A stretch of DNA of 64,000 nt from Calliopum simillimum (taxonomy: Eukaryota; Arthropoda; Insecta; Diptera; Lauxaniidae). Where the stretch lies: contig OX638368.1 of assembly GCA_951812925.1 (NCBI GenBank), forward strand, positions 74,558,422 to 74,622,421, written 5' to 3'. Under the pieces are notes generated by a model. It did not search any database and was not told where the DNA came from. It saw only the letters and a list, made by a program, of their open reading frames with translations. Position numbers and translations under genes: made by a program. Positions 7,033 through 61,330 of the stretch are shown here, in pieces (position 1 is the first letter of the stretch; every line of letters begins with the position of its first letter).

Positions 7033-7575
7033 ATATACACACCGAGACATACTCAAAAATCGTTAAAAAAACTAAAAGGTCGAAAAAAAAAAACGGCTGG
7101 ACTTTCGATTTCGCGGTTTGCGGATTTAGATACTAGAAAGGTCCCCCAACATTATCCCTGAAAAAAATCGCGGGTGGTATTTCAAAAAGTTAAAATTTGT
7201 TAAAAACCACCGTGACAACTTTTGTAGAAAATGACTAGGGCAACATTATCTTCTTAGAAAGTTTTGGTCCAAAAATTAAATTTGGGGCTGTGTCGGTGCG
7301 AAAATTTCAATTTTTTAAGAAAATTTTAATAATTTTTTTTTTATAAATTGGTTTTTTGTAATTTTTTAAGGAAGGGATATTTGTTCTTGAATTCTTGTAT
7401 TGCAGGGGATCAAATGTTGATTAATATAACTCAAAAAAATTATTTAAAAATTGATTTTTTAATTGAACTTTTAGTCATATATTTGCAAAGATCGACTTAC
7501 ATATATGTAAATCTATCAATGCATTTTTCTAACACATAATTATGACAAATCAAGGAATGGATTAAAAACACGGCT

Positions 7576-7622
7576 ATAGTGACATATGTTTCGTCTTTCG
7601 CCACAAAGACTCATCAGACTAT
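7576..7622 (-). ncRNA. Type I hammerhead ribozyme 1
   Basis: The minus strand reads CUGAUGA (7617-7611), a 6-bp stem II (GUCUUU with AAAGAC around a 6-nt loop), GAAA (7592-7589), then AC-AUAU-GU forming a 2-bp stem III, and GUC before the predicted cut between 7581 and 7580. Stem I pairs AUAGU with ACUAU (5 bp). All hammerhead core residues are present. The very short stem III is typical of hammerheads in metazoan retroelements, which often cut as dimers. Confidence 0.85.
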
Positions 7623-7705
7623 TTTTGTTGTAATTATAATTATATTTATTTTACTAAATTAATTATAATTGAAAAATTGCAAGTTTGAAAACTTTTTGTG
7701 TTTTT

Positions 7706-7780
7706 GGCCTGGGCGTGAGTTGAACCAAGGAACTCGCGGTTGGTAGCAGAAGTCGTTACCACTGCACCAGCCTTGCCCCG
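7706..7780 (-). ncRNA. tRNA-like head with A and B boxes
   Basis: On the minus strand an A box TGGTGCAGTGG (7769-7759) is followed by a B box GGTTCAACTCA (7726-7716), close to the consensus GGTTCGANTCC. The spacing fits an internal RNA polymerase III promoter. It lies about 85 nt upstream of hammerhead 1 on the same strand. It is not a standard tRNA gene: the arms pair imperfectly and it recurs within a repeat, so it is best read as a SINE-like head. Confidence 0.7.
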
Positions 7781-8122
7781 CTGCGAAGCCGACTTTTGCC
7801 AGTTTTGTTAGTGTGTTAATACGTATTGATATATCACAATTGTTGTTTTCTGTTATTTATTGATATTTGGTATAGTTGTTCCTTTGGAACAAATTCAATA
7901 CCGATTGCAGGTGTTTCCACCTTATCAGGGCGTGTTCTCCCAAATAACTTTAAGAATTTTTAAGTGTGTTACTTAATGACATTTTATATATGGAAAATTG
8001 ATTTTTTAATTGAACTTTTTTTTAGTCATATATTTGCAAAGATCGACTTACATATAAATCTATCAATGCATTTTTCTAACACATAATTATGACAAATCAA
8101 GGAACGGATTAAAAATACGGCT

Positions 8123-8169
8123 ATAGTGACATATGTTTCGTCTTTCGCCACAAAGACTCATCAGACTAT
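8123..8169 (-). ncRNA. Type I hammerhead ribozyme 2
   Basis: This is identical in core to hammerhead 1: minus-strand CUGAUGA (8164-8158), GAAA (8139-8136) and GUC (8130-8128), with the predicted cut between 8128 and 8127. Stem I is 5 bp, stem II 6 bp, stem III 2 bp. A Helitron is inserted 11 bp upstream of its stem I, leaving the ribozyme core intact. Confidence 0.85.
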
Positions 8170-8180
8170 TTTTGTTGTAA

Positions 8181-8741
8181 TCTATATATATAAAAATGAA
8201 AGCGTCCGTATGTAGCTTATGAACGCGGAAACTACAAGGCCGATTTACATAATTTTTTTTTTAAATTGTTTGTGGGTGGGATGCCACTGAGGGGAACGGG
8301 GGTTGCACCCCCCATACGAAAAAAATACAAAAAATGCTATATCTCTACAGTTATACAAGCTATGATTATGAAAGTTGATGAACTTACGCATAATGTACAC
8401 ATCTACCATTCACCATGTAAAACTTGGGGGATATTGGGTGTAGGAGAATTGCATCCACTTTTCAAAAATACACAAAATGCTATATTTCTCCACATATCGC
8501 AGATATCGTTATAAAACTTGGTACATACATGAATATTTTATCTACCATTTACTTTGAAAAACTGGGCGGGGGGTGAGAAGGGGGAGTTGCATCCTTCATA
8601 TAAAAAATATATAAAATGCTACATGATACATGGATCTTTAAAAACCTTGGTGATTGGAAGAGAGGGACGATGGAGATGGATGGGACTTCGTACGTAAAGG
8701 CATCGGGAATGGGCGGACGAAGTCGCAACCAGGCCAGCTAG
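8181..8741 (+). mobile_element. Non-autonomous Helitron
   Basis: It starts TCTATATATATAAAAATG, the usual insect Helitron 5' start, and ends with GC-rich near-palindromic sequence followed by CAGCTAG. It sits between A and T (8180 and 8742). Removing it restores the sequence TTGTAATTATAATT seen intact at 7626-7640. The interior has degenerate units with ATGCTATATYTC and runs of G. No Rep/helicase is encoded. Confidence 0.85.
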
Positions 8742-8813
8742 TTATAATTATATTTATTTTACTAAATTAATTATAATTGAAAAATTGCAAGTTTGAAAAC
8801 TTTATGTGTTTTT

Positions 8814-8856
8814 GGCCTGGGCGTGAGTTGAACCAAGGAACTCGCGGTTGGTAGCA
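8814..8856 (-). ncRNA. Truncated tRNA-like head
   Basis: This is the 3' half of the tRNA-like segment (B box on the minus strand near 8823-8833). It stops in the anticodon-loop region, where it meets an oppositely oriented copy of the hammerhead 3' product. The A box is missing. Confidence 0.6.
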
Positions 8857-8995
8857 CTATAGCCGTGTTTTTAATCAGTTCCTTGATTTGTCATAATTAT
8901 GTGTTAGAAAAATGCATTGATAGATTTATATGTTTATATGTAAGTCGATCTTTGCAAATATATGACTAAAAAAAAGTTCAATTAAAAAATCAATT

Positions 8996-9252
8996 GAGGA
9001 GTGGCCGTACCAAAGGGCCTAAGTACCATTTCGAGGCAAAAGTAATGTCATACCTTTTATGTGCTTTATAGTCGGTTATTTGACTGTTATAATTTTTTCA
9101 ACATAATGCCATGAATTTCAAACTATCAAGTAAATTTTTAGTGAAAACAGAAAACAATTTTATTAATTTGTAACAAAATGTCACCCGTTTCATATAATGA
9201 CATTACTTTCGCCTCGAAATGGTACTTAGGCCCTTTGGTACGGCCACTCCTC
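8996..9252. mobile_element. 257-bp MITE with ~40-bp TIRs, AATT flanks
   Basis: TIRs begin GAGGAGTGGCCGTACC and extend about 40 bp with essentially no mismatch. AATT is present at 8992-8995 and 9253-9256, and its removal restores the tail sequence TCAATTTTCTATATATAAAA seen near 11430. Too short to encode a protein. Confidence 0.85.
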
Positions 9253-9417
9253 AATTTTCTATATATAAAATGTCATTAAGTAACACACTTAAAAATTAAA
9301 GTTAAAGTTATTTGGGAGAACACGCCCTGATAAGGTGGAAACACCTGCAATCGGTATTGAATTTGTTCCAAAGGAACAACTATACCAAATATCAATAAAT
9401 AACACAAAACAACAATT

Positions 9418-11043
9418 GAGGCGTTGCGTGCATTAACGCCCTAAGTCGACTTAGGGCGTTTTTGCGCCCATCGCTTTTTTGAAAAGCTTGAGTCCTCAAA
9501 TATATGTGTACTTAATTTCAACTTCCAATTACGATCACAGAATGTGGTAGAGCAATATATATATACTGTTTAAAGAGTTGCGTGCAAGAAGGGCGTAGTG
9601 CAACTTGGGGCGTTTTTGCATAAATCAGTTCGCGGTAGGAAAAAAAGGTTTTTACTCAAAACCAAGGTGCCGAGCGAAAAAATTATATATGGAAAAAAAT
9701 GCTTAGAATTGTCCAAAGAGTACGTGTGATTTTATTTAGATTTTTTTTTTTTTTAGCCAAATTTCGAAAAATTATAAAATGTTCGAAAAAATTCTGAAAA
9801 AATTCACACATATTTTTTGGACGATTCCAAGCATTTTCTGCGTAATATACTTTTTTGTCGTAAGGTACCTTGCTTTTGAATTAAATCCATTTTTCCGGCT
9901 GGGTAAAAAAATTGCTATGGTTGAGTGACCATATTTTGATAAATTTGTAGCCTAAGAAATTTTTCAATAAAGCATTTTAAAGGAAACTTTATCTCCTTAT
10001 TTTTTATTAAATTTTGTCTTTTCCTATCTTTGATCTAAAATAAGTTATAGTCAAAAGAGTAAAAAAAGACAAGAATTCGAAAATTTTTTTTGATTTCAAT
10101 ATTCTATAAATTCATTAAAATCCATAGCGCCGCTTTTGTGTAGTATTGAATCAAAATATTCAAGCCTTTAAAAGTGGGTGGGACACTCTTGCCATCCCAT
10201 CCACATTTCGCTATTTATAATCAGCATTTGTCTACCAAACTGAGCCACCATTTGCGAAATATTGCCTAATAAATTCTAATTTTAAAGAATTTGCTACGCC
10301 TTTCTATGAGTACCTACAGGGTTAGAATTTATCCCAGTCTTAATATTATACTAATATAAAACATTGTAACAAATTTCGTTAAAATCTCTATAACCGTTTA
10401 CAAAAAAAAATATTTACCAGGTGCAAAACTTAATGCAATGTATGCATGCATTTTATAAAATTAAAATTTTAAGGAAATAAACAAAAATGCACATTTATAA
10501 ATAATTACGGTGAAAGTATATTTCATTCCCCTCATTTTAAAAAAAAAAATCATTAAAATCAGAATAGTTTTGCCGGTTTCCCAAGCAAAATGCTAACGTT
10601 ATCAGGTGCAAAACTTAGATGCAAATGTATGCGTGCATTTTATAATATTAAAATTTTAAAGAAATAAACAAAAACGCACATTTATAAATTATTGGGGTGA
10701 AAGTATATTTCATTCCCCTGATTTGAAAAAAAAATCATTAAAATCGGAACAGTTTTGCCGGTTTCCCAAGCAAAATGCTAACGTTACTCCAGTGATAGTC
10801 AAATGGATTTATGCAAAAACGCCCTACAATTTAAGTTTTTCCTTCTTCGATAATTCTGTCAATATGCGTTAGTATTATGTGTTAGCGGTAATTATTTACT
10901 CATTTTATTAGGTTTAATTGAATAAATTTGTTTTTCAAGGTTTAAATGATGGTTTGTTCTTTTTATCAGCATTTAAAAACTTTAAATTGAATTATCTCGA
11001 AATGCCATTTTTCGACTTGGGGCGTTATTGCACGCAACGCCTC
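9418..11043. mobile_element. 1.6-kb element with GAGGCGTTGCG ends, AATT flanks
   Basis: TIRs read GAGGCGTTGCGTGCA inward and continue through an ACGCCC.AAGTCGA segment. AATT flanks both sides (9414-9417 and 11044-11047), and the empty site ACAATTGTGATATATC is intact at 7827-7842 on the other arm. The interior contains several ACGCCC/GGGCGT motifs and a 185-bp tandem duplication. Its open frames are short and match nothing I recognise. Same flank and similar first bases as the 257-bp MITE suggest a related family. Confidence 0.8.
10418..10787. repeat. 185-bp tandem duplication
   Basis: Two head-to-tail copies start CAGGTGCAAAACTTA at 10418 and 10603 and end near GCTAACGTTA. They differ by a few substitutions and run-length changes. 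They lie inside the element at 9418-11043. Confidence 0.85.
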
Positions 11044-11104
11044 AATTGTGATATATCAATACGTATTAACACACTAACAAAACTGGCAAAAGTCGGCTTC
11101 GCAG

Positions 11105-11179
11105 CCGGGCAAGGCTGGTGCAGTGGTAACGACTTCTGCTACCAACCGCAAGTTCCTTGGTTCAACTCACGCCCAGGCC
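11105..11179 (+). ncRNA. tRNA-like head upstream of hammerhead 3
   Basis: A box TGGTGCAGTGG at 11116-11126 and B box GGTTCAACTCA at 11159-11169, 32 bp between boxes. The copy is nearly identical to the one at 7706-7780. It lies 84 nt upstream of hammerhead 3 in the same direction. Confidence 0.7.
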
Positions 11180-11262
11180 AAAAACAGAAAAAGTTTTCAA
11201 ACTTGCAATTTTTCAATTATAATTAATTTAGTAAAATAAATATAATTATTATTACAACAAAA

Positions 11263-11309
11263 ATAGTCTGATGAGTCTTTGTGGCGAAAGACGAAACATA
11301 TGTCACTAT
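11263..11309 (+). ncRNA. Type I hammerhead ribozyme 3
   Basis: CUGAUGA at 11268-11274, stem II GUCUUU/AAAGAC, GAAA at 11293-11296, stem III AC-AUAU-GU, GUC at 11302-11304, predicted cut after 11304, and stem I AUAGU/ACUAU. Core identical to hammerheads 1 and 2. Confidence 0.85.
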
Positions 11310-11658
11310 AGCCGTGTTTTTAATCCGTTCCTTGATTTGTCATAATTATATGTTAGAAAAATGCATTGTTAGATTTATATGTAAGTCGATCTTTGCAAAT
11401 ATATGACTAAAAGTTCAATTAAAAAATCAATTTTCTATATATAAAATGTCATTAAGTAACACACTTAAAAATTCTTAAAATTATTTAAAAATATTAAGTT
11501 TTAAGGTATGGAGCCGGTCTCAATGTTGGAAAAAAATTAGCATTTTAATTTTTCTCTTTTAATCGCTTCTTTATTGGATGCAAGCAAATGCATTGTTGGT
11601 TGTTATTAAATGCATCATTTAGAACTGCGTTCGCCTTCAAAATGAGCTATGAAATGGG

Positions 11659-16572: not shown

Positions 16573-16650
16573 CGTAGCGTGGCTTAAGTGGTAGAGGTCT
16601 GCTGCACTCTTTCATTAGAAGGCTGCGGTTCGATTCTAGTAAGAAGCAAA
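16573..16650 (+). ncRNA. tRNA-like head of second hammerhead family
   Basis: A box TGGCTTAAGTGG at 16580-16591 and B box GGTTCGATTCT at 16627-16637, near-consensus and 35 bp apart, fit an internal pol III promoter. The sequence differs from the other tRNA-like heads, so it derives from another tRNA or has diverged. The hammerhead core starts 11 nt downstream. Confidence 0.7.
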
Positions 16651-16660
16651 GATTAACTAA

Positions 16661-16749
16661 AAATAGGTCTGATGAGGCTATGTACATATATATATATGCA
16701 AATATATACATGTGTATTTGGCAATAGCCGAAACATATGTCACCAATTT
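16661..16749 (+). ncRNA. Type I hammerhead ribozyme 4, expanded stem II
   Basis: CUGAUGA at 16669-16675; stem II starts GGCUAU and closes AUAGCC (16724-16729) around a 42-nt AU-rich insert that can itself fold; GAAA at 16730-16733; stem III AC-AUAU-GU; GUC at 16739-16741 with the cut after 16741. Stem I is GGU/ACC plus UAAA/UUUA around one mismatch. The core and the stem III loop equal those of hammerheads 1-3 while stems I and II differ with pairing kept. Confidence 0.8.
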
Positions 16750-39362: not shown

Positions 39363-41245
39363 TTATGCTTGCTGCTTTCGAATGGCCAAATCAAGTTTTT
39401 CGCTTACCCTGTTCAGAAGCACTTTCGTCAATACTTTTGACGGTTTTGAGAGCAAAGTAATGCCTCTATAGTTTCGGCACTCGCTTAGGTCACCTTTTTT
39501 CGGTAGTTTGACTAGCATGCCATGTAACCAATCTTCTGGCAAACGCTCTTCGCTCCAGATTTTGGTGAGCAGAGGATGGAGAATTTTAGCTGCCTTGTTC
39601 TTTTTCATGCTTTGGATAGCTTTCACTATTTCATCGATTGTAGGCGGTGGTGTTTGTATTCGACTACTACTGCGAGTCACTGCGGCAGTTATAGTTGGTG
39701 ATTCTGGTTGTGGGGATGTGGTAGACTTGGGATTTAGTATATCACAAAAATACTCTTTCCATCTCTTTAGTTGTTCGTCCGCGAATGTTAAGAGATTTCC
39801 ATTTTTGTCTTTGACAGGACGGCTCTGTTGGAGTTTTCTGCCAGATAATCTGCGGGTGATATCGTAAAGCTGCCTGAGATTTTGAGCATTTGCAGCGCTT
39901 TCGGCTTCGCTCGCGAGGTCGTTATACATTCTTCTTTTGTCTTGTCTGCACGATCGCCTGACTTCTTTACTGAGAGAGTTAAAGACCTTTTCGGCGATGT
40001 TCTTTTGCGCTCTAGCTTTAGCGTCGTCTCTCAGTTTTTTCGCGCTTTTTCTTTTTTCAACAAGACCCCACGTTTCCTCGCTCATCCAGTGCTTCTTGTT
40101 CGAGGGTCGAATCCCAAGTATTTTTTCACTGGAGTTTAAGAAGGCCGTCTTAACTGCCCTCCATGATGTTTTAATACTTCCACCACAATCGAACGGAGCT
40201 GTTTTAAGTTCTTCTACGAAAGATCTGCGTATCTCGTCGTTCTTAAGCTTAAGCACGTCGAATTTTTTTGCTACAGATTGTTCGCTGGGACGTTTATTAG
40301 CGGCAAGTTTTAGTCGAATGACCGCGACGAGAAGATGGTGGTCAGAGCCTATGTCAGCGGCCCTCTTTACTCGTACGTCCAGAGACTCCCTCTCCATTTT
40401 CTGCTAATGCAGAAGTGGTCGATTTGGTTTTCAGTGATGTTGTCTGGAGACACCCAAGTAGCTTTATGGCACTTTTTGTGTGGGAATAGCGTACCTTCAA
40501 CGACAAGACCGGCTGTATTGCAGGCGTCAATGAGAAGCTCTCCATTGTCGTTTCTCGCACCCAAACCATGTCTTCCAATCACGTGCTCAAGGTTAAGGTT
40601 TTCTGAGCCTACTTTGGCATTCAAATCGCCCATAACCATTATGATGTCGTTTTTGTGAGCACTATTTATTGCTGCGGCGAGCTGGCTGTAGAATTCATCT
40701 TTGGTTTCTCTCTCTGCCAACTCGGTGGGCGCGTATGCTTGAAAGATGGTAATATATCTTGCGGGGGTTCGAAATCTGCACCAAATGAGCCTTTCGTTTA
40801 CAGGTTTCCATTCCATAACTGCTTTTACTGCAGTTTTACTTAACAAAAATCCAACTCCATCCCTGTGGATGTCATTTTGCGCTCTACCGGAGTATAGAAA
40901 TTTTTCGCCGTCAGGAAGTTTATATTCGCCGGTACCGTTCCATCTACACTCGCTTAATCCCAATATTTCAACGTTGAATTTGTGGAGTTCTCTAACGGCT
41001 TGGTGTATTTTGCCTGGTTCATTTAGAGTTCGGATATTCCAAGAGCCAATGCGTGTTCGAGTTTTCATCGAAAGGATTTTAAAATTTTGAGAAACCATAT
41101 TGGTTCCAGTTATAAGAGAATCATTCCTAACTATGCATGTTTCTTGCACCTCCAAATCCGATGTGCATGCTGCCGAGGCAGGTGGATTAACCACACTCTG
41201 GTGGGTACCACTTGGAGAGTTATTATTCATCGTTTTTCGATCCAT
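39363..41245 (-). pseudogene. RTE endonuclease and RT N-terminus, one frameshift
   Basis: The first frame (41245-40367, 292 residues) has APE endonuclease motifs: GSWNIRTLN (N), LGLSECRWNG (catalytic E), YAPTE (Y), MGDLNAKVG (D, N) and ENQIDHF. A single-base shift near 40393 moves it into the second frame (40397-39363, 344 residues) with the last endonuclease motif SDHHLL, a linker, and the RT start (CRNYRGITLL). The frame ends at a TAA just after RKQQA. Confidence 0.85.
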
Positions 41246-41618
41246 GCTTCATTAGTATAATCTTCTCGGCAACCCCCCACGCAGTAAGTTATAAGCTTAA
41301 AGCTGGATCCGGCAAGCGCTGCAAATATAGTGGCCAAATTCACTTTTAATTTCAGCCGCCATATCTGGAACAGACGCTGACCTGGGAGCCGCCCACTCTG
41401 GGTCAGACGCTTCAGGATTTTGACAAGATGCTTATTTTAAGGCGGCATCAACTCGCCTTGTCAGTGCCAGTTACGGGCATTGTGGGTTTTTTTTCAGGTC
41501 GCAACGCTGTCCAACGCTACACCCTTCCACACCCTGGCTGGTCACCCGCTTTTAGTCGCTTTTTACGACAGGCATGCTTACCTCGGGCATATTCTGAGCC
41601 CTTGCCCGCAGGGGTAAG

Positions 41619-41984
41619 CAGTTTTAATTCTTTTGCTTTTTTTTTTATTTATTGTCACTTTCGGTCACTTGTTTTTTTTTGTTTGATACAATGTCTTTCG
41701 CTTTTAATCATCACGTAATTTTATAGTTTTAATGAGAAATTAAATTAGTTTCGTGTTGAATGAAATTTTGCACGATTTTATGCTTGACAGCAGAAATGTG
41801 TTTTTGCTTTTTTTTTTAGCTTGTTAAATGTCATAACAAAAGAAACTCTGAGTTGCAGATTTACATGCAGGTATTGGTATGCATTTTGACACTTCGCCTT
41901 ATTCCTTTTGTGGAATTCGTATGCTGTATAGGATGTCTCTTTTTAACATTAGTGGGCACAAACGCACGGCATTAACGAGCAGCA
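41619..41984. other. Flank of RTE copy 2, no gene
   Basis: T-rich sequence with no coding signal. It ends with the left TSD of the Jockey fragment, CATTAACGAGCAGCA (41970-41984). Confidence 0.5.
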
Positions 41985-42519
41985 TTACATCCTATGTTAA
42001 ACCGAAACTCTTCACTTAATGTCAAAAATAAAGTTCTTCTCTATAATATGTGCATCAGACCTATAATGACTTACGGCTGCCAAATTTGGTTTTCAAATAT
42101 TGCTAAAACTCACTTAAAGAAACTCCAGATAATTCAAAACAAAAACTTGAAAATTATTCACAAATTCTCCGGTAGATATCCAACTATTGAGCAGCATGAA
42201 AATTTTGAACATAAACCAATCAACTCAACGACGAGAGATTTGACGCTGAAATTGAGTGATAGATGCAGATTTTCTAACATAGATTATATAAGGAATTTAC
42301 TTGAATAACTTCACTAATAACTTTGGAAAAAGTTATTCAGTGCGTTTATTTCATTTCTTATAAAAATTTTTTACGATTACATAAGGTTTTTTCAATTCTT
42401 AATTTTTCCTTAATTAATTAACTTTTTGATGTAATACCTCTAAGTTAAATCTCAAATAATGTAATTTCTTTTATCAAAAAATAATGATTTTAAAGTTCAA
42501 TAAATACAAATTACAATTA
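41985..42519 (+). mobile_element. 5'-truncated Jockey-like retrotransposon, copy A
   Basis: A 104-codon frame (41994-42308) has the C-terminal RT part of Jockey-type elements: NVKNKVLLYNMCIRPIMTYG, CQIWFSNIAK and LQIIQNKNLKII. A 3' UTR with AATAAA (42500) ends ATACAAATTACAATTA. The 15-bp TSD CATTAACGAGCAGCA lies at 41970-41984 and 42520-42534, so this is a target-primed insertion truncated at the 5' end, about 535 bp. It is present again in the second unit. Confidence 0.9.
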
Positions 42520-42629
42520 CATTAACGAGCAGCAAAACAATTTTAGAGCGTATTTTAAGCGATCACCTGTTTCGTGCCTCTTTTGATATTCGCGGGAGCG
42601 CTAGCGCTTCACTAATTATTTTGCAGTAG

Positions 42630-42745
42630 TGCTGCGACATCGACATCGATGTTGATGAAACATCGATGTTTTGCAAGAACATCGACTGTTTTTAACATCG
42701 ATGTTTAAAGTTCGATTTTTTGCCTCGATGTTTTTATTCGATGTT
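42630..42745. repeat. Cluster of CATCGATG palindromes
   Basis: About six occurrences of ACATCGATGTT or close variants within 115 bp, on both strands because the motif is palindromic. Copied at about 60150-60265. It could be a decayed short tandem repeat or a factor-binding cluster. No gene is adjacent. Confidence 0.6.
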
Positions 42746-43705
42746 TTCACAAATTTCGTTTGGAAAAATTTTGTTTTCACAAGTTTTGTTTGCACAAATT
42801 TTGCTTAGACAATTCGCATTCAAGATTGGAATGGGCGTGATAACAAATTTTTGGAACAGCGTTTTTTGTGTACATACGCGTCGTCTATTTCTAAAAAAAA
42901 CATTTTTTTTTGCATAAATTAATGTTAAATAGCTAATTGTTTGCATTTATTTATTTACTTTGAAGTTTGAGGCAAAAACGCTGTCAAATATATTACTACG
43001 TCATAGTTATGTTACCGTAGCCAGATTAGGGACATTTTCTGCTTTTGAACACAAAAAATTTTTTTTTTTTTTTTTTGTTGTTTAAGTTAACCTGAAGCAC
43101 AATATTTTAGCATTGTTTTTTTTCTGTATTTTTTTAAAACTTTTAATTTTGAACTCAATGGAAAGAAATTTGTACATATATTTTTTTTTTTTTCTGTTAA
43201 ATTTTGTCGTGTGTATCTATTTAAATATTTTGGCACAAAAACATATACATATTTTTTTCAAATAAATACAGGATTGCGATTTTTATAAATCTTTTCAGGG
43301 ATAAGTGAAAAAAAAAATTAAATGAGAAAAAAATCCGTTGATCTGGTAACACAGCATTATGTCATCGTCAGCCAATCAAAATCATTTAAAATTAAAAAGT
43401 TATCTGATTGGTGTTTGACTCAATATGGCGGATGTGCATTAGGCATGCGCTTATTTTACGATTTTCTGATTTTCGTTCATGCCGCCCCCTGAAATCCTTC
43501 TAATGGTCATAAAAACAAATACTATGAAGTTTCACGGCGATCGGATAACGATAACCCGGCCCGCAAGAGGTTTCAGGCAAAACATAATGAAAATTTTTTT
43601 TAAACTTAATTAAATTAGTCAAAGCATAACTTTATCTTATAGCAAATTTAAATACCTTTCCAACAAGTTATAATTGTTTAAAATCGGGTGATAAATACGA
43701 ATTCT
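42746..43705. other. AT-rich sequence, no gene seen
   Basis: Long T runs at 43058-43077 and 43179-43195. The overlapping frames here have no recognisable domain. The sequence is shared with 60266-61220 of the second unit. Confidence 0.45.
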
Positions 43706-43810
43706 ATGAATTTTTCTTTTATCGACATTAGCAAAATTGCCGCAAAATGCTATTCTACTACATATGTTATTTTGCGGCAATTTTGTTAATGCCGTAAAAG
43801 AAAAATTCAT
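43706..43810. repeat. 105-bp hairpin, ~42-bp arms
   Basis: Arms ATGAATTTTTCTTTTA... (43706-43748) and ...TAAAAGAAAAATTCAT (43769-43810) pair with few mismatches, core GCAAAATTGCCGCAAAAT. The loop is ~20 nt. Present again at about 61226-61330, where the loop differs by one base (CATATGTTA to CATATGGTA). Confidence 0.8.
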
Positions 43811-44072
43811 ATTTTGTTAAATTTCGACTTTTTAAGGAAGTTTTTCGTTTTTTAAAAGGTGTAAAATTTTTTTTTGTCAAAATTACATCGTAGGTTTTAA
43901 AGTTCATCAAAAAACAAACAAAATGAATGTTTTTATGTTGGTCTAAAACAAATTTTTCAAATTGTTTGGCAACATTTTATAATGAATGCTAAAAAAAAAA
44001 TATTAAAAATATATTTTTGCTTTTAGCCACCTTTAAAAATGCATTTAAAAATCTGAAAAAGTTTATGGGATA

Positions 44073-47000
44073 TGTAACGGTATGGAAGCGTTTGCACTAT
44101 CTTGGTCAAGGTGAAAACAGACTAAGACCTCATGACTTCAGAGCGGGCTCTGCACACCTAGCTATGCTTCGGTCTTAGCTCAGGGAAAGTGGGGGTGGGT
44201 GTGCTCATAGCCATGAAGAGGCGCTACATAACCAAAATTTGGTGCAGATAGATAGACGTATTAAAGGAGTAGAAAAAGGAAAGGATAATTGACCGAAAAA
44301 TACATAGGCTATGGTAACTATTTGAAACACGGAATCTAAACTAGCATTGCACAACATGACACAAGACAAAACCTTCCGAATCTAAAGACTTGTTAGGTCG
44401 AAGACAAGCTATGGTGACAAACGCCTATCTTCTTCATAACCCACCCAACCTATTATCGGAGTAAAAATATCTGTTCCGATAACCCTCATGTAACCATATG
44501 ATGTCTCCTTACATCTCCCTACAAAGCCTCATAGTAGCAAAGAGAAATTTAATTTAGAATTTCATTATAATTTTATTCGTAATTCAAGAAATAACAAAAC
44601 CGCAAAAATTCATGTTTCTGAATTAATATTAAAGTATTTAACAATACTAAATACTTATGATCATACAAAAATATACCCAGCTTATAAGATAAACTTAGCA
44701 AATTTATATACACATTTTTAGTTTTGTTAATTAAGCTAATCGATAGAAATCAAAATTTGTGTCCAATCGTGGTGCTAATATTTTCGCCTATACTGTACTA
44801 CAAGTGCAATTATGAGAGTTCATTGAGAAAGCAAAGTAAAAGTCTACACTCTCATTAGAAAAATCACAGTACAAAACAAGAGCAATTAAAACTTATAAAA
44901 GCAAATCAAATGAGATCAAAGGAGAGTCTCCACTACTCGTAGATCTCTACACAAAGCATAGCTTATGCTGTAACAAATAAAATTTGTGAGATTCTCACGG
45001 CTAAATTTTTTGTTATGCTCTATGTATCTCTTGTTTTTACATTAAGTTTGGATTTTACTTTAGATTTAGATTCTTTTAACTTTACTATAGATATTAAGCT
45101 AGTAGTATACTCATTTTAGTTTTTCAATTAATGTTTTAAAATTTAAATATGCCACAAAATAAAATGTTTTAATTAATTTATTTCACAACACATACCTTAA
45201 ATGTTGATAGATTTTTCAGCAAACCGATGATCGACGAAGGCCTTCATGGATCCTCGATGAGTTGATTTTCAGCTTTGAAGTAAGTTTCTCTACATTATTA
45301 TTGTGGCTTATGCGTTTTTAGTCACAACAATTATTCAATAAATAGTTACCTAAAAGCACTATTGATTGGAGTTAAAATTTTTTCCTAATTTAGATTTGAG
45401 TATAGCAAATTAAATCAGGTTTGAAAATTCTCAAATATTCTAAAGCTTAAAACAAAACTAGTGACTTTCAAAATCGTATTTCAAAATTATTTAAGTTTAA
45501 TTTCCAATCTTAAGCTTAGACTATGGCACAATGACAATTCATATTTTTCACTTTTTGACGTTCAATTTAAACTATAGATTTTTGGAAATTTAAGAACCCT
45601 GTTATCAAAATTCTTAATTTTAAATTCTAAATTTCATTTTTAAAGAATTTGAAATTCACATTTTTAGATTCTTAAGTTTGCTATAGGATTTAATTCAGTT
45701 TTTAGTTTTTAATTTACATTAATATAAAAAAATGGAAATTATAGTATATTAAGAGGTTCTTAAAATTAAGTATTTTATCTGATTTTTAAGCATTTCAAAG
45801 ACATATTTTTAATAAGTGAATTCTTAAAAACCAAGTTTAGCATTTAAGATGTTAAAGCCTTAGATCTAAGTTTTAATTTTAGGGGAATTTAAAATCCATA
45901 TTTTTAAATTCTTAAATTCTTTAGCCTTATTTTAATATTTAAGTACTTTAAACTTAGTCCATGAGACCTTTTTCTTTAGGAGAATTTAAATCTTTTTCTT
46001 CAAATTCGCCGTGTTAAACGCTTAAGTTTTTCTACGCTAAATTTAGTCTTTAGGTTAAATTGATTGAATTACGTTAATCAAAAACGAATATATGTAAAGG
46101 ATATTTTGGCATAGCACTTTAAGTAATTCTTAGTGGAAAATTCCTTTAAAACCAACAAAAAACCTCGTAAATGATATCCTCATGCGTCTGGACTTATTAG
46201 CCGGGGTTGTCCTTGAGATGACCCCGTTGACTTTAACCGTCTTCTAATCTAAAGAAGGTCATGTACTTTTGTACCACAAGTGCCACGTTGATTTTGAATT
46301 TTTTTGGAGTCACAAGAAGATGAGTGAGGTGGTGGATGAAAATATGTCCACATCAATATAATTGTTTAACAGGAATCTGGGTGGCAGCAACCACTGCAGC
46401 CGCAGATTATGTCCCGGTTCTTCTCCTAATTTTGGGACAAAAAAAAAAAAGTGTGGCTAGAACTTTGATATACACTGTATAATTACTCGAAAGACTTACC
46501 TAAATACGAGTATTCTTTTTTCCTAGTCCAATAATTCAGAATTTTTATTCTGGCACTAATCGGCGAAATCTTAAAATTTATTGGCTTTTCAGTTGCTGTA
46601 CTTTTGTACTAATTTAATAATTCACTATGTTTGTATATGCTTTTTAAAAAATCGTATACGCAGCTTTCTGTTTCTCGTCAAAATGAAAGAGGGATCGTTT
46701 AATAATCTTGTGCATAGCATACCAAAATACCTAACATAAAAAAAAAATCAACGGTATCGCTATGGAATTTTATGCAAAAAATATGTTTTGATCGACCATG
46801 GTGACACATAGGATACTATACCTATAATGCATGATTTTTACATAGAAATTATCTAGGATAATTTTTTATTCAGATTTAAGTATTTAAATCATATCCCATC
46901 CCTGAAGATATGTAAAAGATATTTGGCCATTTTATGAGAATTTCGAGCCTATTTGTTGACTTGAGAAATAAATCGAATAATTTGGAATTTTACTACCTGC

Positions 47001-47371
47001 AAAATTTTCAAAGACGGAAATGAGATTTCAATCATTTATTAATATGCTTGTAAAGTATGTCTGATTTTTTTAACAACCAAAAATATACTTTAACATTTGC
47101 CTTTTTGATGTACCATATTGAAATGCTTCCCGTTGTTTTTGTAGGGGTGCAAATGCATTGCCTAACAGCCATGTTTAAAAAAAAAAATGCATTAGCCAGA
47201 GAATGCATCGGTAAATTGCATTCAATTATTATATTGAAAGCTCTTCTTTTTACAAGTTGAAAAATAAGTAGGATGACCATCTGTAATGACATTATTTATT
47301 TTTTCTTAAATTACAAAATTGTAATTACAGAAATGTTAAATAAACGAAAACTGAAATATCTATTCCTCACA
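44073..47371 (-). repeat. 3' LTR of the RING-Gag element (3299 bp)
   Basis: Starts (plus strand) TGTAACGGTATGGAAGCG and ends TATTCCTCACA. Very long for an insect gypsy LTR. It contains an open frame of 86 codons on the minus strand (47292-47032), present in both LTRs with one residue different, but without a recognisable domain. Much of the LTR is AT-rich. The internal boundary lacks an evident polypurine tract. Confidence 0.95.
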
Positions 47372-53124: not shown

Positions 53125-53131
53125 TTAATTA

Positions 53132-56100
53132 TGTAACGGTATGGAAGCGTTTGCACTATCTTAGTCAAGGTGAAAACAGACTAAGACCTCATGACTTCAG
53201 AGCGGGCTCTGCGCACCTAGCTATGCTTCGGTCTTAGCTCAGGGAAAGTGGGGGTGGGTGTGCTCTTAGCCATGAAGATGCGCTACATAACCAAAATTTG
53301 GTGCAGATAGATAGACGTATTAAAGGAGTAGAAAAAGGAAAGGATAATTGACCGAAAAATACATAGGCTATGGTAACTATTTAAAACACGGAATCTAAAC
53401 TAGCATTGCACAACATGACACAAGACAAAACCTTCCGAATCTAAAGACTTGTTAGGTCGAAGACAAGCTATGGTGACAAACGCCTATCTTCTTCATAACC
53501 CACCCAACCTATTATCGGAGTAAAAATATCTGTTCCGATAACCCTCATGTAACCCTATGATGTCTCCTTACATCTCCCTACAAAGCCTCATAGTAGCAAA
53601 GAGAAATTTAATTTAGAATTTCATTATAATTTTATTCGTAATTCAAGAAATAACAAAACCGCAAAAATTCATGTTTCTGAATTAATATTAAAGTATTTAA
53701 CAATACTAAATACTTGTGATCATACAAAAATATACCCAGCTTATAAGATAAACTTAGCAAATTTATATACACATTTTTAGTTTTGTTAATTAAGCTAATC
53801 GATAGAAATCAAAATTTGTGTCCAATCGTGGTGCTAATATTTTCGCCTATACTGTACTACAAGTGCAATTATGAGAGTTCATTGAGAAAGCAAAGTAAAA
53901 GTCTACACTCTCATTAGAAAAATCACAGTACAAAACAAGAGCAATTAAAACTTATAAAAGCAAATCAAATGAGATCAAAGGAGAGTCTCCACTACTCGTA
54001 GATCTCTACACAAAGCATAGCTTATGCTGTAACAAATAAAATTTGTGAGATTCTCACGACTAAATTTTGTTTTATGCTCTATGTATCTCTTGTTTTTACA
54101 TTAAGTTTGGATTTTACTTTAGATTTAGATTCTTTTAACTTTACTATAGATATTAAGCTAGTAGTATACTCATTTTAGTTTTTCAATTAATGTTTTAAAA
54201 TTTAAATATGCCAGAAAATAAAATGTTTTAATTAATTTATTTCACAACACATACCTTAAATGTTGATAGATTTTTCAGCAAACCGATGATCGACGAAGGC
54301 CTTCATGGATCCTCGATGAGTTGATTTTCAGCTTTGAAGTAAGGTTCTCTACATTATTATTGTGGCTTATGCGTTTTTAAGTCACAACAATTATTCAATA
54401 AATAGTTACCTAAAAGCACTATTGATTGGAGTTAACATTTTTTCCTAATTTAGATTTGAGTATAGCAAATTAAATCAGGTTTGAAAATTCTCAAATATTC
54501 TAAAGCTTAAAACAAAACTAGTGACTTTCAAAATCGTATTTCAAAATTATTTAAGTTTAATTTCCAATCTTAAGCTTAGACTAAGGCACAATGACAATTC
54601 ATATTTTTCACTTTTTGACGTTCAATTTAAACTTTAGATTTTTGGAAATTTAAGAACCCTGTTATCAAAATTCTTAGTTTTAAATTCTAAATTTCATTTT
54701 TAAAGAATTTGAAATTCACATTTTTAGATTCTTAAGTTTGCTATAGGATTTAATTCAGTTTTTAGTTTTTAATTTACATTAATATAAAAAAATGGAAATT
54801 ATAGTATATTAAGAGGTTCTTAAAATTAAGTATTTTATCTGATTTTTAAGCATTTCAAAGACATATTTTCAATAAGTGAATTCTTAAAAACCAAGTTTAG
54901 CATTTAAGATGTTAAAGCCTTAGATCTAAGTTTTAATTTTAGGGGAATTTAAAATCCATATTTTTAAATTCTTAAATTCTTTAGCCTTATTTTAATATTT
55001 AAGTAATTTAAACTTAGTCCATGAGACCTTTTTCTTTAGGAGAATTTAAATCTTTTTCTTCAAATTCACTGTGTTAAACGCTTAAGTTTTTCTACGCTAA
55101 ATTTAGTCTTTAGGTTAAATTGATTGAATTACGTTAATCAAAAACGAATATATGTAAAGGATATTTTGGCATAGCACTTTAAGTAATTCTTAGTGGAAAA
55201 TTCCTTTAAAACCAACAAAAAACCTCATAAATGATATCCTCATGCGTCTGGACTTATTAGCCGGGGTTGTCCTTGAGATGACCCCGTTGACTTTAACCGT
55301 CTTCTAATCTAAAGAAGGTCATGTACTTTTGTACCACAAGTGCCACGTTGATTTTGAATTTTTTTGGAGTCACAAGAAGATGAGTGAGGTGGTGGATGAA
55401 AATATGTCCACATCAATATAATTGTTTAACAGGAATCTGGGTGGCAGCAACCACTGCAGCCGCAGATTATGTCCCGGTTCTTCTCCTAATTTTGGGACAA
55501 AAAAAAAAAAGTGTGGCTAGAACTTTGATATACACTGTATAATTACTCGAAAGACTTACCTAAATACGAGTATTCTTTTTTCCTAGTCCAATAATTCAGA
55601 ATTTTTATTCTGGCACTAATCGGCGAAATCTTAAAATTTATTGGCTTTTCAGTTGCTGTACTTTTGTACTAATTTAATAATTCACTATGTTTGTATATGC
55701 TTTTTAAAAAATCGTATACGCAGCTTTCTGTTTCTCGTCAAAATGAAAGAGGGATCGTTTAATAATCTTGTGCATAGCATACCAAAATACCTAACATAAA
55801 AAAAAAATCAACGGTATCGCTATGGAATTTTATGCAAAAAATATGTTTTGATCGACCATGGTGACACATAGGATACTATACCTATAATGTATGATTTTTA
55901 CATAGAAATTATCTAGGATAATTTTTTATTCAGATTTAAGTATTTAAATCATATCCCATCCCTGAAGATATGTAAAAGATATTTGGCCATTTTATGAGAA
56001 TTTCGAGCCTATTTGTTGACTTGAGAAATAAATCGAATAATTTGGAATTTTACTACCTGCAAAATTTTCAAAGACGGAAATGAGATTTCAATCATTTATT

Positions 56101-56431
56101 AATATGCTTGTAAAGTATGTCTGATTTTTTTAACAACCAAAAATATACTTTAACATTTGCCTTTTTGATGTACCATATTGAAATGCTTCCCGTTGTTTTT
56201 GTAGGGGTGCAAATGCATTGCCTAACAGCTATGTTTAAAAAAAAAAATGCATTAGCCAGAGAATGCATCGGTAAATTGCATTCAATTATTATATTGAAAG
56301 CTCTTCTTTTTACAAGTTGAAAAATAAGTAGGATGACCATCTGTAATGACATTATTTATTTTTTCTTAAATTACAAAATTGTAATTACAGAAATGTTAAA
56401 TAAACGAAAACTGAAATATCTATTCCTCACA
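53132..56431 (-). repeat. 5' LTR of the RING-Gag element (3300 bp)
   Basis: Same ends as 44073-47371 and near-identical throughout. Differences are mostly single substitutions, with a few one-base indels (for example one extra A near 54380). It should contain the element promoter; no convincing TATA/Inr pair was assigned. Right flank is TSD GATA (56432-56435). Confidence 0.95.
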
Positions 56432-57321
56432 GATATTCTGTCATGATGTAGAACGTGATGTCAAAGTATATCTAAGAAATTCGAAAAAATTTTTTTTTTG
56501 AACAGCCCTAGTGTACATCTATGGAAACGTTTTTTTTTTTTAAATCTAACAGATATTTTTAGGGTTTTAAGGTTATTTTCTGAAATTTTGTTTTGTGAGT
56601 TATAAGTCGTACGGAAACAATTATTAGGTCATTTTATAAGCTACAATATTGCGCCACAATATTTTTCTCTAAATGTAAGCGTTAAATACAATAGATATTT
56701 ATAAAAAACTGATTTTGGACGCCATTTTTCCAGTATGGCGGTGCGAGCGAACTCGACTCGAGGTAGCAAAGTTGAAATTCTGAAAGAGCACATCGAAATC
56801 TATAAAATAACTCATCTGCAAAAATCCCGCAAAACTTTAAAGGTAAAACTACCAAATGACTGTACTAAATAAAAAATAATTGAAATCTCATTGTTCACAA
56901 ATCGTTACTATATGTTTAAGATGATATCGTAGTGTTAGTAATAAAAACAAGACATGTTCATATTTTTTGTTTTGAGAAAAAACTGTTTTAAGTTCTTTGG
57001 ATTTCGTTTTTGTATTGGATTCTGAAATTTTCTGCTTTTTTTTTCATGAAATACATTTAAAAATTTTTCTTTTATGTGTGCTTAAATCAAAATATCAAAA
57101 ATGTAGATGTTCAGTTTTAGTATTAACCCTACAATATTAAAAACTATGTTAATAAATCAGCTTTACTTATATTTATACATTTATCTATGTAAACTAAGAA
57201 GGAACTTATCTATTTAAAATTATACTGCAAAAGACGTCAATAAATCAGTATTTTCATTATCTGAAGATGGTTGTATTTCATAAAGTAGGAATTATGTGCA
57301 AGGAACATATTTATGTACTAT

Positions 57322-57550
57322 AGTAGGGGAACTGATGCTATTGTGGTATAGCTTATATTTAGGTGGAATTTCAAAAAGAACTAATGTATCAATTTCAGCC
57401 AAATTTGTTCATGCTGATCATTGAAGTATTGGCTACAGAATATATTTCAACAAAATGTGTGCAACTTCATTAAAAAAAGTTATTGAGCAAAATCTGAAAA
57501 AAGTCAAAAAGGCTGTTTTCAAAAAGTTGGCAGGTAATGTGGTATATATC
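57322..57550. mobile_element. Truncated left end of TIR element (unit A)
   Basis: Starts AGTAGGGGAACTGATGCTAT and stops at the unit A/B join, just after one GTAATGTGGTATA motif. The intact copy is at 62477-63627. Confidence 0.75.
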
Positions 57551-58765
57551 TCAGTTTTTTCGCGCTTTTTCTTTTTTCAACAAGACCCCACGTTTCCTCG
57601 CTCATCCAGTGCTTCTTGTTCGAGGGTCGAATCCCAAGTATTTTTTCACTGGAGTTTAAGAAGGCCGTCTTAACTGCCCTCCATGATGTTTTAATACTTC
57701 CACCACAATCGAACGGAGCTGTTTTAAGTTCTTCTACGAAAGATCTGCGTATCTCGTCGTTCTTAAGCTTAAGCACGTCGAATTTTTTTGCTACAGATTG
57801 TTCGCTGGGACGTTTATTAGCGGCAAGTTTTAGTCGAATGACCGCGACGAGAAGATGGTGGTCAGAGCCTATGTCAGCGGCCCTCTTTACTCGTACGTCC
57901 AGAGACTCCCTCTCCATTTTCTGCTAATGCAGAAGTGGTCGATTTGGTTTTCAGTGATGTTGTCTGGAGACACCCAAGTAGCTTTATGGCACTTTTTGTG
58001 TGGGAATAGCGTACCTTCAACGACAAGACCGGCTGTATTGCAGGCGTCAATGAGAAGCTCTCCATTGTCGTTTCTCGCACCCAAACCATGTCTTCCAATC
58101 ACGTGCTCAAGGTTAAGGTTTTCTGAGCCTACTTTGGCATTCAAATCGCCCATAACCATTATGATGTCGTTTTTGTGAGCACTATTTATTGCTGCGGCGA
58201 GCTGGCTGTAGAATTCATCTTTGGTTTCTCTCTCTGCCAACTCGGTGGGCGCGTATGCTTGAAAGATGGTAATATATCTTGCGGGGGTTCGAAATCTGCA
58301 CCAAATGAGCCTTTCGTTTACAGGTTTCCATTCCATAACTGCTTTTACTGCAGATTTACTTAACAAAAATCCAACTCCATCCCTGTGGATGTCATTTTGC
58401 GCTCTACCGGAGTATAGAAATTTTTCGCCGTCAGGAAGTATATATTCGCCGGTACCGTTCCATCTACACTCGCTTAATCCCAATATTTCAACGTTGAATT
58501 TGTGGAGTTCTCTAACGGCTTGGTGTATTTTGCCTGGTTCATTTAGAGTTCGGATATTCCAAGAGCCAATGCGTGTTCGAGTTTTCATCGAAAGGATTTT
58601 AAAATTTTGAGAAACCATATTGGTTCCAGTTATAAGAGAATCATTCCTAACTATGCATGTTTCTTGCACCTCCAAATCCGATGTGCATGCTGCCGAGGCA
58701 GGTGGATTAACCACACTCTGGTGGGTACCACTTGGAGAGTTATTTTCCATCGTTTTTCGATCCAT
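57519..58765 (-). pseudogene. RTE endonuclease fragment in unit B
   Basis: The same endonuclease as at 41245, with 292 residues in the first frame (58765-57887), four or so residue differences, and the same single-base frame change (near 57913). The second frame runs only to the unit join, after KRKSAKKLR, so it lacks RT. The identical frame change shows it was already present before duplication. Confidence 0.85.
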
Positions 58766-59505
58766 GCTTCATTAGTATAATCTTCTCGGCAACCCCCCAC
58801 GCAGTAAGTTATAAGCTTAAAGCTGGATCCGGCAAGCGCTGCAAATATAGTGGCCAAATTCACTTTTAATTTCAGCCGCCATATCTGGAACAGACGCTGA
58901 CCTGGGAGCCGCCCACTCTGGGTCAGACGCTTCAGGATTTTGACAAGATGCTTATTTTAAGGCGGCATCAACTCGCCATGTCAGTGCCAGTTACGGGCAT
59001 TGTGGGTTTTTTTTCAGGTCGCAACGCTGTCCAACGCTACACCCTTCCACACCCTGGCTGGTCACCCGCTTTTAGTCGCTTTTTACGACAGGCATGCTTA
59101 CCTCGGGCATATTCTGAGCCCTTGCCCGCAGGGGTAAGCAGTTTTAATTCTTTTGCTTTTTTTTTTATTTATTGTCACTTTCGGTCACTTGTTTTTTTTT
59201 GTTTGATACAATGTCTTTCGCTTTTAATCATCACGTAATTTTATAGTTTTAATGAGAAATTAAATTAGTTTCGTGTTGAATGAAATTTTGCACGATTTTA
59301 TGCTTGACAGCAGAAATGTGTTTTTGCTTTTTTTTTTTAGCTTGTTAAATGTCATAACAAAAGAAACTCTGAGTTGCAGATTTACATGCAGGTATTGGTA
59401 TGCATTTTGACACTTCGCCTTATTCCTTTTGTGGAATTCGTATGCTGTATAGGATGTCTCTTTTTAACATTAGTGGGCACAAACGCACGGCATTAACGAG
59501 CAGCA

Positions 59506-60040
59506 TTACATCCTATGTTAAACCGAAACTCTTCACTTAATGTCAAAAATAAAGTTCTTCTCTATAATATGTGCATCAGACCTATAATGACTTACGGCTG
59601 CCAAATTTGGTTTTCAAATATTGCTAAAACTCACTTAAAGAAACTCCAGATAATTCAAAACAAAAACTTGAAAATTATTCACAAATTCTCCGGTAGATAT
59701 CCAACTATTGAGCAGCATGAAAATTTTGAACATAAACCAATCAACTCAACGACGAGAGATTTGACGCTGAAATTGAGTGATAGATGCAGATTTTCTAACA
59801 TAGATTATATAAGGAATTTACTTGAATAACTTCACTAATAACTTTAGAAAAAGTTATTCAGTGCGTTTATTTCATTTCTTATAAAAATTTTTTACGATTA
59901 CATAAGGTTTTTTCAATTCTTAATTTTTCCTTAATTAATTAACTTTTTGATGTAATACCTCTAAGTTAAATCTCAAATAATGTAATTTCTTTTATCAAAA
60001 AATAATGATTTTAAAGTTCAATAAATACAAATTACAATTA
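59506..60040 (+). mobile_element. 5'-truncated Jockey-like retrotransposon, copy B
   Basis: Copy of 41985-42519 in unit B, with an identical 104-residue translation (59515-59829) and the same 15-bp TSD on both sides. It is a duplicate by unit copying, not a second insertion. Confidence 0.9.
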
Positions 60041-61225
60041 CATTAACGAGCAGCAAAACAATTTTAGAGCGTATTTGAAGCGATCACCTGTTTCGTGCCT
60101 CTTTTGATATTCGCGGGAGCGCTAGCGCTTCACTAATTATTTTGCAGTAGTGCTGCGACATCGACATCGATGTTGATGAAACATCGATGTTTTGCAAGAA
60201 CATCGACTGTTATTAACATCGATGTTTAAAGTTCGATTTTTTGCCTCGATGTTTTTATTCGATGTTTTCACAAATTTCGTTTGGAAAAATTTTGTTTTCA
60301 CAAGTTTTGTTTGCACAAATTTTGCTTAGACAATTCGCATTCAAGATTGGAATGGGCGTGATAACAAATTTTTGGAACAGCGTTTTTTGTGTACATACGC
60401 GTCGTCTATTTCTAAAAAAAACATTTTTTTTTGCATAAATTAATGTTAAATAGCTAATTGTTTGCATTTATTTATTTACTTTGAAGTTTGAGGCAAAAAC
60501 GCTGTCAAATATATTACTACGTCATAGTTATGTTACCGTAGCCAGATTAGGGACATTTTCTGCTTTTGAACACAAAAAATTTTTTTTTTTTTTTTTTTTT
60601 TGTTTAAGTTAACCTGAAGCACAATATTTTAGCATTGTTTTTTTTCTGTATTTTTTTAAAACTTTTAATTTTGAACTCAATGGAAAGAAATTTGTACATA
60701 TTTTTTTTTTTTTTTTTGTTAAATTTTGTCGTGTGTATCTATTTAAATATTTTGACACAAAAACATATACATATTTTTTTCAAATAAATACAGGATTGCG
60801 ATTTTTATAAATCTTTTCAGGGATAAGTGAAAAAAAAAATTAAATGAGAAAAAAATCCGTTGATCTGATAACACAGCATTATATCATCGTCAGCCAATCA
60901 AAATCATTTAAAATTAAAAAATTATCTGATTGGTGTTTGACTCAATATGGCGGATGTGCATTAGGCATGCGCTTATTTTACGATTTTCTGATTTTCGTTC
61001 ATGCCGCCCCCTGAAATTCTTCTAATGGTCATAAAAACAAATACTATGAAGTTTCACGGCGATCGGATAACGATAACCCGCAAGAGGTTTCACGCAAAAC
61101 ATAATGAAAATTTTTTTTAAACTTAATTAAATTAGTCAAAGCATAACTTTATCTTATAGCAAATTTAAATACCTTTCCAACAAGCTATAATTGTTTAAAA
61201 TCGGGTGATAAATACGAATTCTATG

Positions 61226-61330
61226 AATTTTTCTTTTATCGACATTAGCAAAATTGCCGCAAAATGCTATTCTACTACATATGGTATTTTGCGGCAATTT
61301 TGTTAATGCCGTAAAAGAAAAATTCATATT
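61226..61330. repeat. 105-bp hairpin, copy B
   Basis: Unit B copy of the hairpin at 43706-43810. The arms are unchanged apart from minor differences, and one loop-edge base differs. Confidence 0.7.

Follow-up and report, generated by a model that had tools for sequence, protein, structure and literature searches.

The 64,000-nt window of the Calliopum simillimum genome analysed here carries a hammerhead-bearing repeat that is probably a non-autonomous retroelement with monomers of ~547 nt, namely an animal non-LTR retrozyme resembling a Penelope pseudo-LTR (pLTR) that has recruited a SINE-like head with A and B boxes. This reading is supported by three identical hammerheads, copies elsewhere in the genome, a 547-nt spacing, a 20:0 bias in the orientation of neighbouring copies, target-site duplications (TSDs) and a recurring 3' end. 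A first-pass annotation of the same DNA had described two direct hammerheads 547 nt apart with a tRNA-like head between them; the head-to-head insertion, its TSD, the third hammerhead, a second element and the copy number go beyond that description.

Hammerhead ribozymes of the 547-nt unit

The two reported type I hammerheads lie on the minus strand at 7576-7622 and 8123-8169, as annotated, and share an identical 37-nt core (7581-7617 and 8128-8164). The same core recurs on the plus strand at 11268-11304, within a third hammerhead (11263-11309) that belongs to an opposite-strand array, and had no match in 100 shuffles. All parts of a type I hammerhead are present, with a CUGANGA / GAAA / H17 core, a stem I of 5 bp (AUAGU/ACUAU), a stem II of 6 bp (GUCUUU/AAAGAC) and a minimal, palindromic stem III of 2-3 bp (ACAUAUGU). 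Cleavage is predicted between 7581 (C17) and 7580 in the first copy and between 8128 and 8127 in the second.

The Rfam model Hammerhead_1 (RF00163) was covered from position 1 to 45 of 45 at both minus-strand sites with 21.5 bits (E 0.06). The gathering score is 34, and the Infernal search suggested in the first-pass annotation returned no match at that curated threshold anywhere in the 64-kb window; by Rfam score these sequences would be, at best, minimal or divergent type I members. A structure-aware scan, which required the core, a stem I and a stem II of at least 4 bp each, and pair 15.1-16.1 plus the next pair, found exactly the three identical hammerheads in the window and none in 60 dinucleotide shuffles, while a laxer scan matched 4 sites in the window and, for comparison, 2 in 100 shuffled sequences. 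The full model coverage and the structure-aware scan bear out the earlier description of complete cores with paired stems. For the isolated stretch the hammerhead fold has -5.0 kcal/mol, whereas the fold of minimum energy reaches -7.9 (z 0.12), so thermodynamics does not favour the hammerhead there. Judged by sequence and fold pattern, the two reported hammerheads are genuine, with cleavage as a prediction. Minimal hammerheads, possibly acting as dimers, are also carried by Penelope elements (PMC7761336; PMC7229834).

The complete monomer extends from cleavage site to cleavage site (7581-8127, minus strand), has 547 nt with identical hammerheads at its ends and has a GC content of 0.32; its translation contains no long ORF. 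Unit positions are numbered below such that position p corresponds to window position 8128-p.

A composite head-to-head insertion

Both minus-strand hammerheads are part of a single insertion of ~4 kb, from about 7447 to 11480, in which a minus-strand and a plus-strand array stand head-to-head within one 16-bp TSD. A BLAST comparison of unit and window gave unit positions 380-547, 1-547 and 1-134 for the minus array, and 1-547 followed by 1-~179 for the plus array; the two meet at 8855/8856. The minus array consists of a main part at 7447-8180 (unit 495-547, 1-547, 1-134) and a remainder at 8742-8856 (unit ~380-494). The plus array begins at 8856-8995 with unit position 1, which is the 5' end of the predicted cleavage product, one base being ambiguous with the minus array. 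It continues at 9253-9417 (unit ~130-290) and ends at 11044-11480 (unit ~287-547, then 1 to ~179), where the BLAST alignment extends to unit 186, inside the TSD.

The left copy of the 16-bp TSD (AAAATTATTTAAAAAT, 7436-7451) overlaps the array end by microhomology, and the right copy (AAAATTATTTAAAAAT) lies at 11477-11492. Among 4000 control pairs of AT-rich windows, 13 shared at least 16 nt and 19 did so at 13 nt, so the TSD of the window is by itself good, not decisive.

Three later transposons interrupt the composite, which must be old enough to have received three insertions. One of them (8181-8741, plus strand, with TC...CTAG ends), which we take from its end motifs to be Helitron-like, is inserted between A and T, and the 25-nt join of its empty site is present in the unit. 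The other two are inverted-repeat DNA transposons, one of 257 bp at 8996-9252 (TIR GAGGAGTGGCCGTAC, TSD AATT) and one of 1.6 kb at 9418-11043 (TIR GAGGCGTTGCGTGCA, TSD AATT). They differ in length, have similar TIR starts (GAGG[A/C]G) and AATT duplications, and sit in one small host element.

Copies across the genome

Pattern matching with up to 2 mismatches over the assembly (690 Mb, 334 contigs) gave 2156 matches to the hammerhead core (reversed control, 0) and 1223 to the head, defined as unit 350-386 (control, 0). Protein matches to one retrotransposon of this DNA were headed by two flies, Teleopsis and Calliphora, at 55% identity, which fits a dipteran host. The segment upstream of the head, searched with a pattern that was off consensus, had 945 matches, 28 of them exact among the matches listed. 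Statistics on position were drawn from 100 hammerhead and 100 head places listed, all of which are exact and lie on contig 1. In this set of 200 listed places, 34 pairs of same-strand neighbours were spaced by 539-568 nt with a mode of 547, which supports a hammerhead-delimited monomer recurring in tandem elsewhere in the genome. Opposite-strand neighbours within 3.5 kb were arranged minus-plus (head-to-head) 20 times and plus-minus (tail-to-tail) never, again among the 200 listed places and with this window included in the count; minus-plus pairs numbered 16, 19, 20 and 21 at limits of 1, 2, 3.5 and 6 kb, with no plus-minus pair throughout.

Among the exact heads examined on the first 60.41 Mb of contig 1, 31 of 46 are followed by an exact hammerhead 151-172 nt downstream, and 31 of the 100 exact hammerheads listed have an exact head upstream. 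Most clusters (62 of 78 among the first 100 places) held a single exact hammerhead; tandem runs reached 7 consecutive listed heads at steps of 544-547 nt (66.536-66.539 Mb). Viral contigs had no match to the hammerhead pattern, and the only viral match to the head (L001) lies in bacterial-looking coding sequence and is apparently due to chance.

Individual copies were read from 300 kb of evenly spaced genome sample. L012 (8336-8895) contains unit 331-547 and 1-~180 in sense orientation, an inverted arm that ends at unit ~127-142, and a TSD of 13 nt. L022 is also inverted, with ends near unit 179 and 274, not ~130 and ~179, and L004 is a fragment of unit 122-179. L025 is divergent, with a decayed hammerhead that Rfam does not match. 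Two copies are more divergent still and inverted: L008, in which stem II of the hammerhead is changed and the TSD has 15 nt, and L020, which lacks the hammerhead, is flanked by a 16-nt A-rich repeat (a weak TSD) and lies in what looks like an intron of a fatty-acid-synthase-like gene. TSDs were thus seen in 4 of the 7 insertions examined (16 nt in the window, 13 in L012, 15 in L008 and 16 in L020) and were looked for without success at L022, L004 and the second element described below.

A 3' end near unit 179 is common to the window, L012, L022 and L004, and the 3' ends of the copies read are internal and without A tail. In the window and in L012 the inverted arm falls short of the end at ~179 by ~40-50 nt; L022 deviates. 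The 5' ends vary (unit 1, ~25, ~331 and others), and just one is at the cleavage site. L012 (~8506) and L025 (~7930), which belong to different subfamilies, both start near unit 331-334, that is 25-28 nt upstream of the A box, a position that would fit a pol III start. An AC-rich hairpin (TTAAGT-AACAC-ACTTAA, unit 152-168, 7960-7976 on the minus strand, predicted at -2.3 kcal/mol) adjoins the recurring 3' end at ~179 on its upstream side. The window and L022 have an unbroken hairpin, L012 and L004 a damaged one, and it is therefore a lead, not proof. Pfam detected no Penelope ORF in 10 of the 146 frames of at least 110 residues in the sample and the window, and no ORF for RT and GIY-YIG was found in the copies read; the element is therefore not filed as an autonomous Penelope.

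Promoter boxes of the SINE-like head

The minus strand of the unit contains an A box (TGGTGCAGTGG, 7759-7769, unit 359-369) that agrees at 11 of 11 positions with the consensus TRGYNNANNNG, and a B box (GGTTCAACTCA, 7716-7726, unit 402-412) that agrees at 10 of 11 with GGTTCRANTCC. A comparable pair occurred in none of 2000 shuffles of the unit, but 9 were found when the whole window was shuffled 60 times. Both boxes occur at pol III spacing in the window unit, L012, L025 and the second element. L012 and L025 each score 10/11 for the A box and 11/11 for the B box, which reads GGTTCAACTCC in both, and in L025 the stretch between the boxes has been altered by an indel and many substitutions; L008 has a B box of 9/11. 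The boxes of the annotated head are consequently present in other genomic copies, as the 1223 head matches, the 31 of 46 heads followed by a hammerhead and the boxes of L025 indicate. The head as a recognisable tRNA was rejected, since neither ARAGORN nor Rfam, even at E<=10, matched a tRNA in it. Of the tRNA-like head proposed in the first-pass annotation the candidate boxes stand and the tRNA identity does not; 'tRNA-like' applies to the boxes alone.

Two possible pol III terminators lie between the B box and the hammerhead on the minus strand (7672-7691): a TTTT at 7691-7688 (unit 437-440) and a TTTTT at 7676-7672 (unit 452-456). The T4 and T5 runs are also found in L012, and L025 has two T5 runs; the window unit thus has possible terminators before its end. 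Because of these runs a pol III transcript would be expected to stop before the hammerhead, which makes a self-sufficient unit doubtful for the 547-nt family and argues against pol III as the maker of a multimer. The earlier suggestion that the unit would be self-sufficient for transcription does not fit these runs, and self-sufficient pol III transcription of the predicted unit is weakly supported.

A second element of the same layout

A second element with the same layout and a divergent sequence was found by our own scan on the plus strand at 16580-16741. It has an A box (TGGCTTAAGTG) at 16580 that scores 11/11, a B box (GGTTCGATTCT) at 16627 that scores 10/11, and a hammerhead-like motif from CTGATGA at 16669 to GAAACATATGTC at 16730-16741. 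This motif has a long AU-rich stem II loop and a stem I of 3 bp before a mismatch, and its GAAACATATGTC stem III is common to the hammerhead of the 547-nt family. It is among the 4 window matches of the laxer scan, for which 100 shuffles gave 2, and Rfam lends it no support (13.8 bits, E 5.5, the level of chance). Before 16830, a point past the hammerhead, T runs remain shorter than 4 nt, and a self-sufficient pol III unit would therefore be more plausible for this putative element than for the 547-nt family. L009 contains a degenerate relative of parts of the second element.

Relation to known hammerhead elements

Several properties of animal non-LTR retrozymes are found here, since these likewise have type I hammerheads, low GC, tandem noncoding monomers and, when present, TSDs of more than 4 bp (PMC7229834). 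In the 547-nt family, type I hammerheads bound the tandem monomers, the unit has no ORF, and TSDs of 13-16 bp were seen in 4 of 7 insertions. Its monomer of 547 nt is longer than the ~170-400 nt given for animal non-LTR retrozymes, and it forms head-to-head insertions, of which the consulted part of that description makes no mention (PMC7229834). Penelope has been proposed as the partner of these retrozymes, and insects are named among their hosts (PMC7229834). According to the portions consulted of a 2020 review, retrozymes apparently lack transcriptional promoters, unlike the unit with its A and B boxes, and show no motif that betrays their partner (PMC7761336).

The resemblance to hammerhead-bearing Penelope repeats noted in the first-pass annotation was strengthened by the head-to-head layout, the unequal ends and the TSD. 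The hammerhead pLTRs of Penelope show the same combination of head-to-head inverted repeat, tandem arrangement, unequal ends, TSD, minimal hammerhead and AT-rich target (PMC3846280; PMC11167929). The family differs from Penelope in that no ORF was seen, in its SINE-like head, and in TSDs of 13-16 bp against 8-10 bp (PMC3846280). The likeness to plant LTR retrozymes, which had also been suggested, was not upheld. Those elements have type III hammerheads, LTRs of ~350 bp, a TSD of 4 bp and a tRNA-Met PBS, whereas we find a type I fold, TSDs of 13-16 bp and insertions whose layout is head-to-head and not LTR-like.

Sm-alpha and Sj-alpha of schistosomes are SINE-like hammerhead elements (PMC8490949; PMC6155905). 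As described in the consulted parts of these papers, they are, like the 547-nt element, short SINE-like retroposons with a type I hammerhead, in hosts of a different phylum. Sm-alpha and Sj-alpha carry pol III boxes; if this is right, the same combination exists in another phylum. We know of no Penelope footprint for either. In insects, the pDo500 family of Dolichopoda cave crickets is also a tandem hammerhead repeat of ~500 bp, but a satellite, and the terms tRNA and polymerase III are absent from the main text of its description (PMC2837043). Helenus TRIMs with tRNA-like LTRs, found in arthropods too, have an A/B-box head within a terminal repeat; they differ by their LTR, PBS, PPT and animal TSD of 4 bp, and the consulted part of their description mentions no hammerhead of their own (PMC10886601). 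Mostly at the level of titles and the beginnings of abstracts, a literature search revealed no recognised insect element combining a tRNA head with a hammerhead. Insect hammerhead repeats, animal retrozymes and Penelope hammerheads are thus already known. What is new is the presence of promoter boxes and of a head-to-head/TSD footprint on a retrozyme-like element, with several divergent relatives in one genome, although Sm-alpha may combine the same parts.

Insertion mechanism and alternative explanations

A Penelope-type mode of insertion is suggested by the head-to-head layout, the unequal ends and the TSDs of 13-16 bp, which resemble published Penelope inserts. Those consist of a head-to-head inverted pLTR with a TSD and an optional 31-bp tail at one end, and genomic Penelope copies are mostly head-to-head (PMC3846280). 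A purified Penelope protein cuts AT-rich DNA on both strands and extends both; reverse transcription begins within the RNA, where an AC-rich stem-loop lies 111-118 nt into the ORF, with the hammerhead cut at +26 (PMC11167929). In the mechanism that we favour, a tandem copy would first be transcribed and its minimal type I hammerheads would cleave the multimer at the C17/A1.1 junction, possibly dimerised by means of the palindromic stem III. Monomers or oligomers, linear or circularised by ligation, would then be bound in trans by a Penelope-type RT/GIY-YIG endonuclease. Both strands of an AT-rich target would be cut 13-16 bp apart, each 3' end would prime reverse transcription inside the RNA, and the two cDNAs would meet head-to-head within the TSD; this end product is seen in the DNA, and the order of events is our reconstruction. 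Run-off of the RT at a self-cleaved 5' end would yield a plus array that starts at unit 1, as in one case only.

Several observations do not favour this non-autonomous Penelope-like retrozyme. Penelope insertion in vitro does not need hammerhead cleavage, and its authors report no reads that start or end at the hammerhead cut (PMC11167929), which speaks against an essential role of the hammerheads. In 3 of 7 insertions a search for a TSD gave none, the ends of L022 differ, 5' ends are variable, the Rfam score is below gathering, the hammerhead fold is not that of minimum energy, and no Penelope ORF was present among the 10 frames scanned.

The same Penelope-like layout, unequal ends and TSDs would also be expected if the 547-nt unit were the pLTR of an autonomous Penelope whose copies are truncated or without ORF, with A and B boxes lying within or invading the pLTR. 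An ATG in CUGAUGA, with the predicted cut ~33 nt downstream, recalls the +26 of the anole element, but its frame ends after 24 codons; tandem runs, in which as many as 7 listed heads follow one another at steps of 544-547 nt, leave no space for an ORF, and the translated unit has no long one, so we regard this origin as rather unlikely. A self-sufficient ribozyme unit driven by pol III, in which an internal promoter would give a multimer that is then cut and circularised, is unlikely in turn. The boxes are kept in copies as divergent as L025, and the second element has no T run before 16830, but the T4 and T5 runs of the window unit and L012, the two T5 runs of L025 and the absence of a tRNA model match speak against it.

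Mobilisation by a LINE would account for the A and B boxes of a tRNA-SINE in which the hammerhead is a passenger, and twin priming would explain the inverted 5' ends. A TSD length of 13-16 bp is common for LINEs, LINEs are also able to produce 5' inversions, and the starts of L012 and L025 just upstream of the A box would fit. What makes this explanation very unlikely is that the element forms tandem arrays, that the 3' ends of the copies read are internal and carry no A tail, and that opposite-strand neighbours among the listed places are head-to-head by 20:0. Ordinary satellite DNA with a chance hammerhead, amplified by recombination, would produce 547-nt tandem arrays, and pDo500 is a precedent for a ~500-bp hammerhead satellite in an insect (PMC2837043). 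It appears extremely improbable here: copies are dispersed, since 62 of the 78 clusters formed by the first 100 places hold a single exact hammerhead, TSDs were seen, the inversion rule applies, and one relative occupies an apparent intron.

Beyond the retrozyme that we favour, a broader generalisation is conceivable, if on balance doubtful: a class of SINEs without LINE or LTR partner, which would combine an internal tRNA-type promoter with processing (and perhaps circularisation) by their own hammerhead and with two-sided, internally primed reverse transcription by Penelope enzymes. The divergent families sharing that plan would be the 547-nt family, L025, L008 and the second element.

The literature, in the parts consulted, settles neither the transcription of animal hammerhead elements nor the enzyme that mobilises them. 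Because there are ~2000 ribozyme copies with TSDs and ends that recur, and because the head-to-head rule is strict, the Penelope hypothesis becomes testable from DNA alone; the A and B boxes of divergent relatives would let a pol III assay test the promoter hypothesis. The Penelope-like insertion scars hint at how ribozyme elements may spread. If true, the combination of SINE, hammerhead and Penelope would provide animal retrozymes with a promoter and with the partner that could not be named in the 2020 review.

Elsewhere in the window, ARAGORN predicted tRNA-Cys genes at 42644-42731 and 60165-60252; both are apparent false positives in ATCGATGTT-rich repeats of a duplicated block. Within 40029-47371 and 53130-62705, a retrotransposon-rich region, segments of 1.1 to 4 kb recur at ~99% identity in rearranged order.
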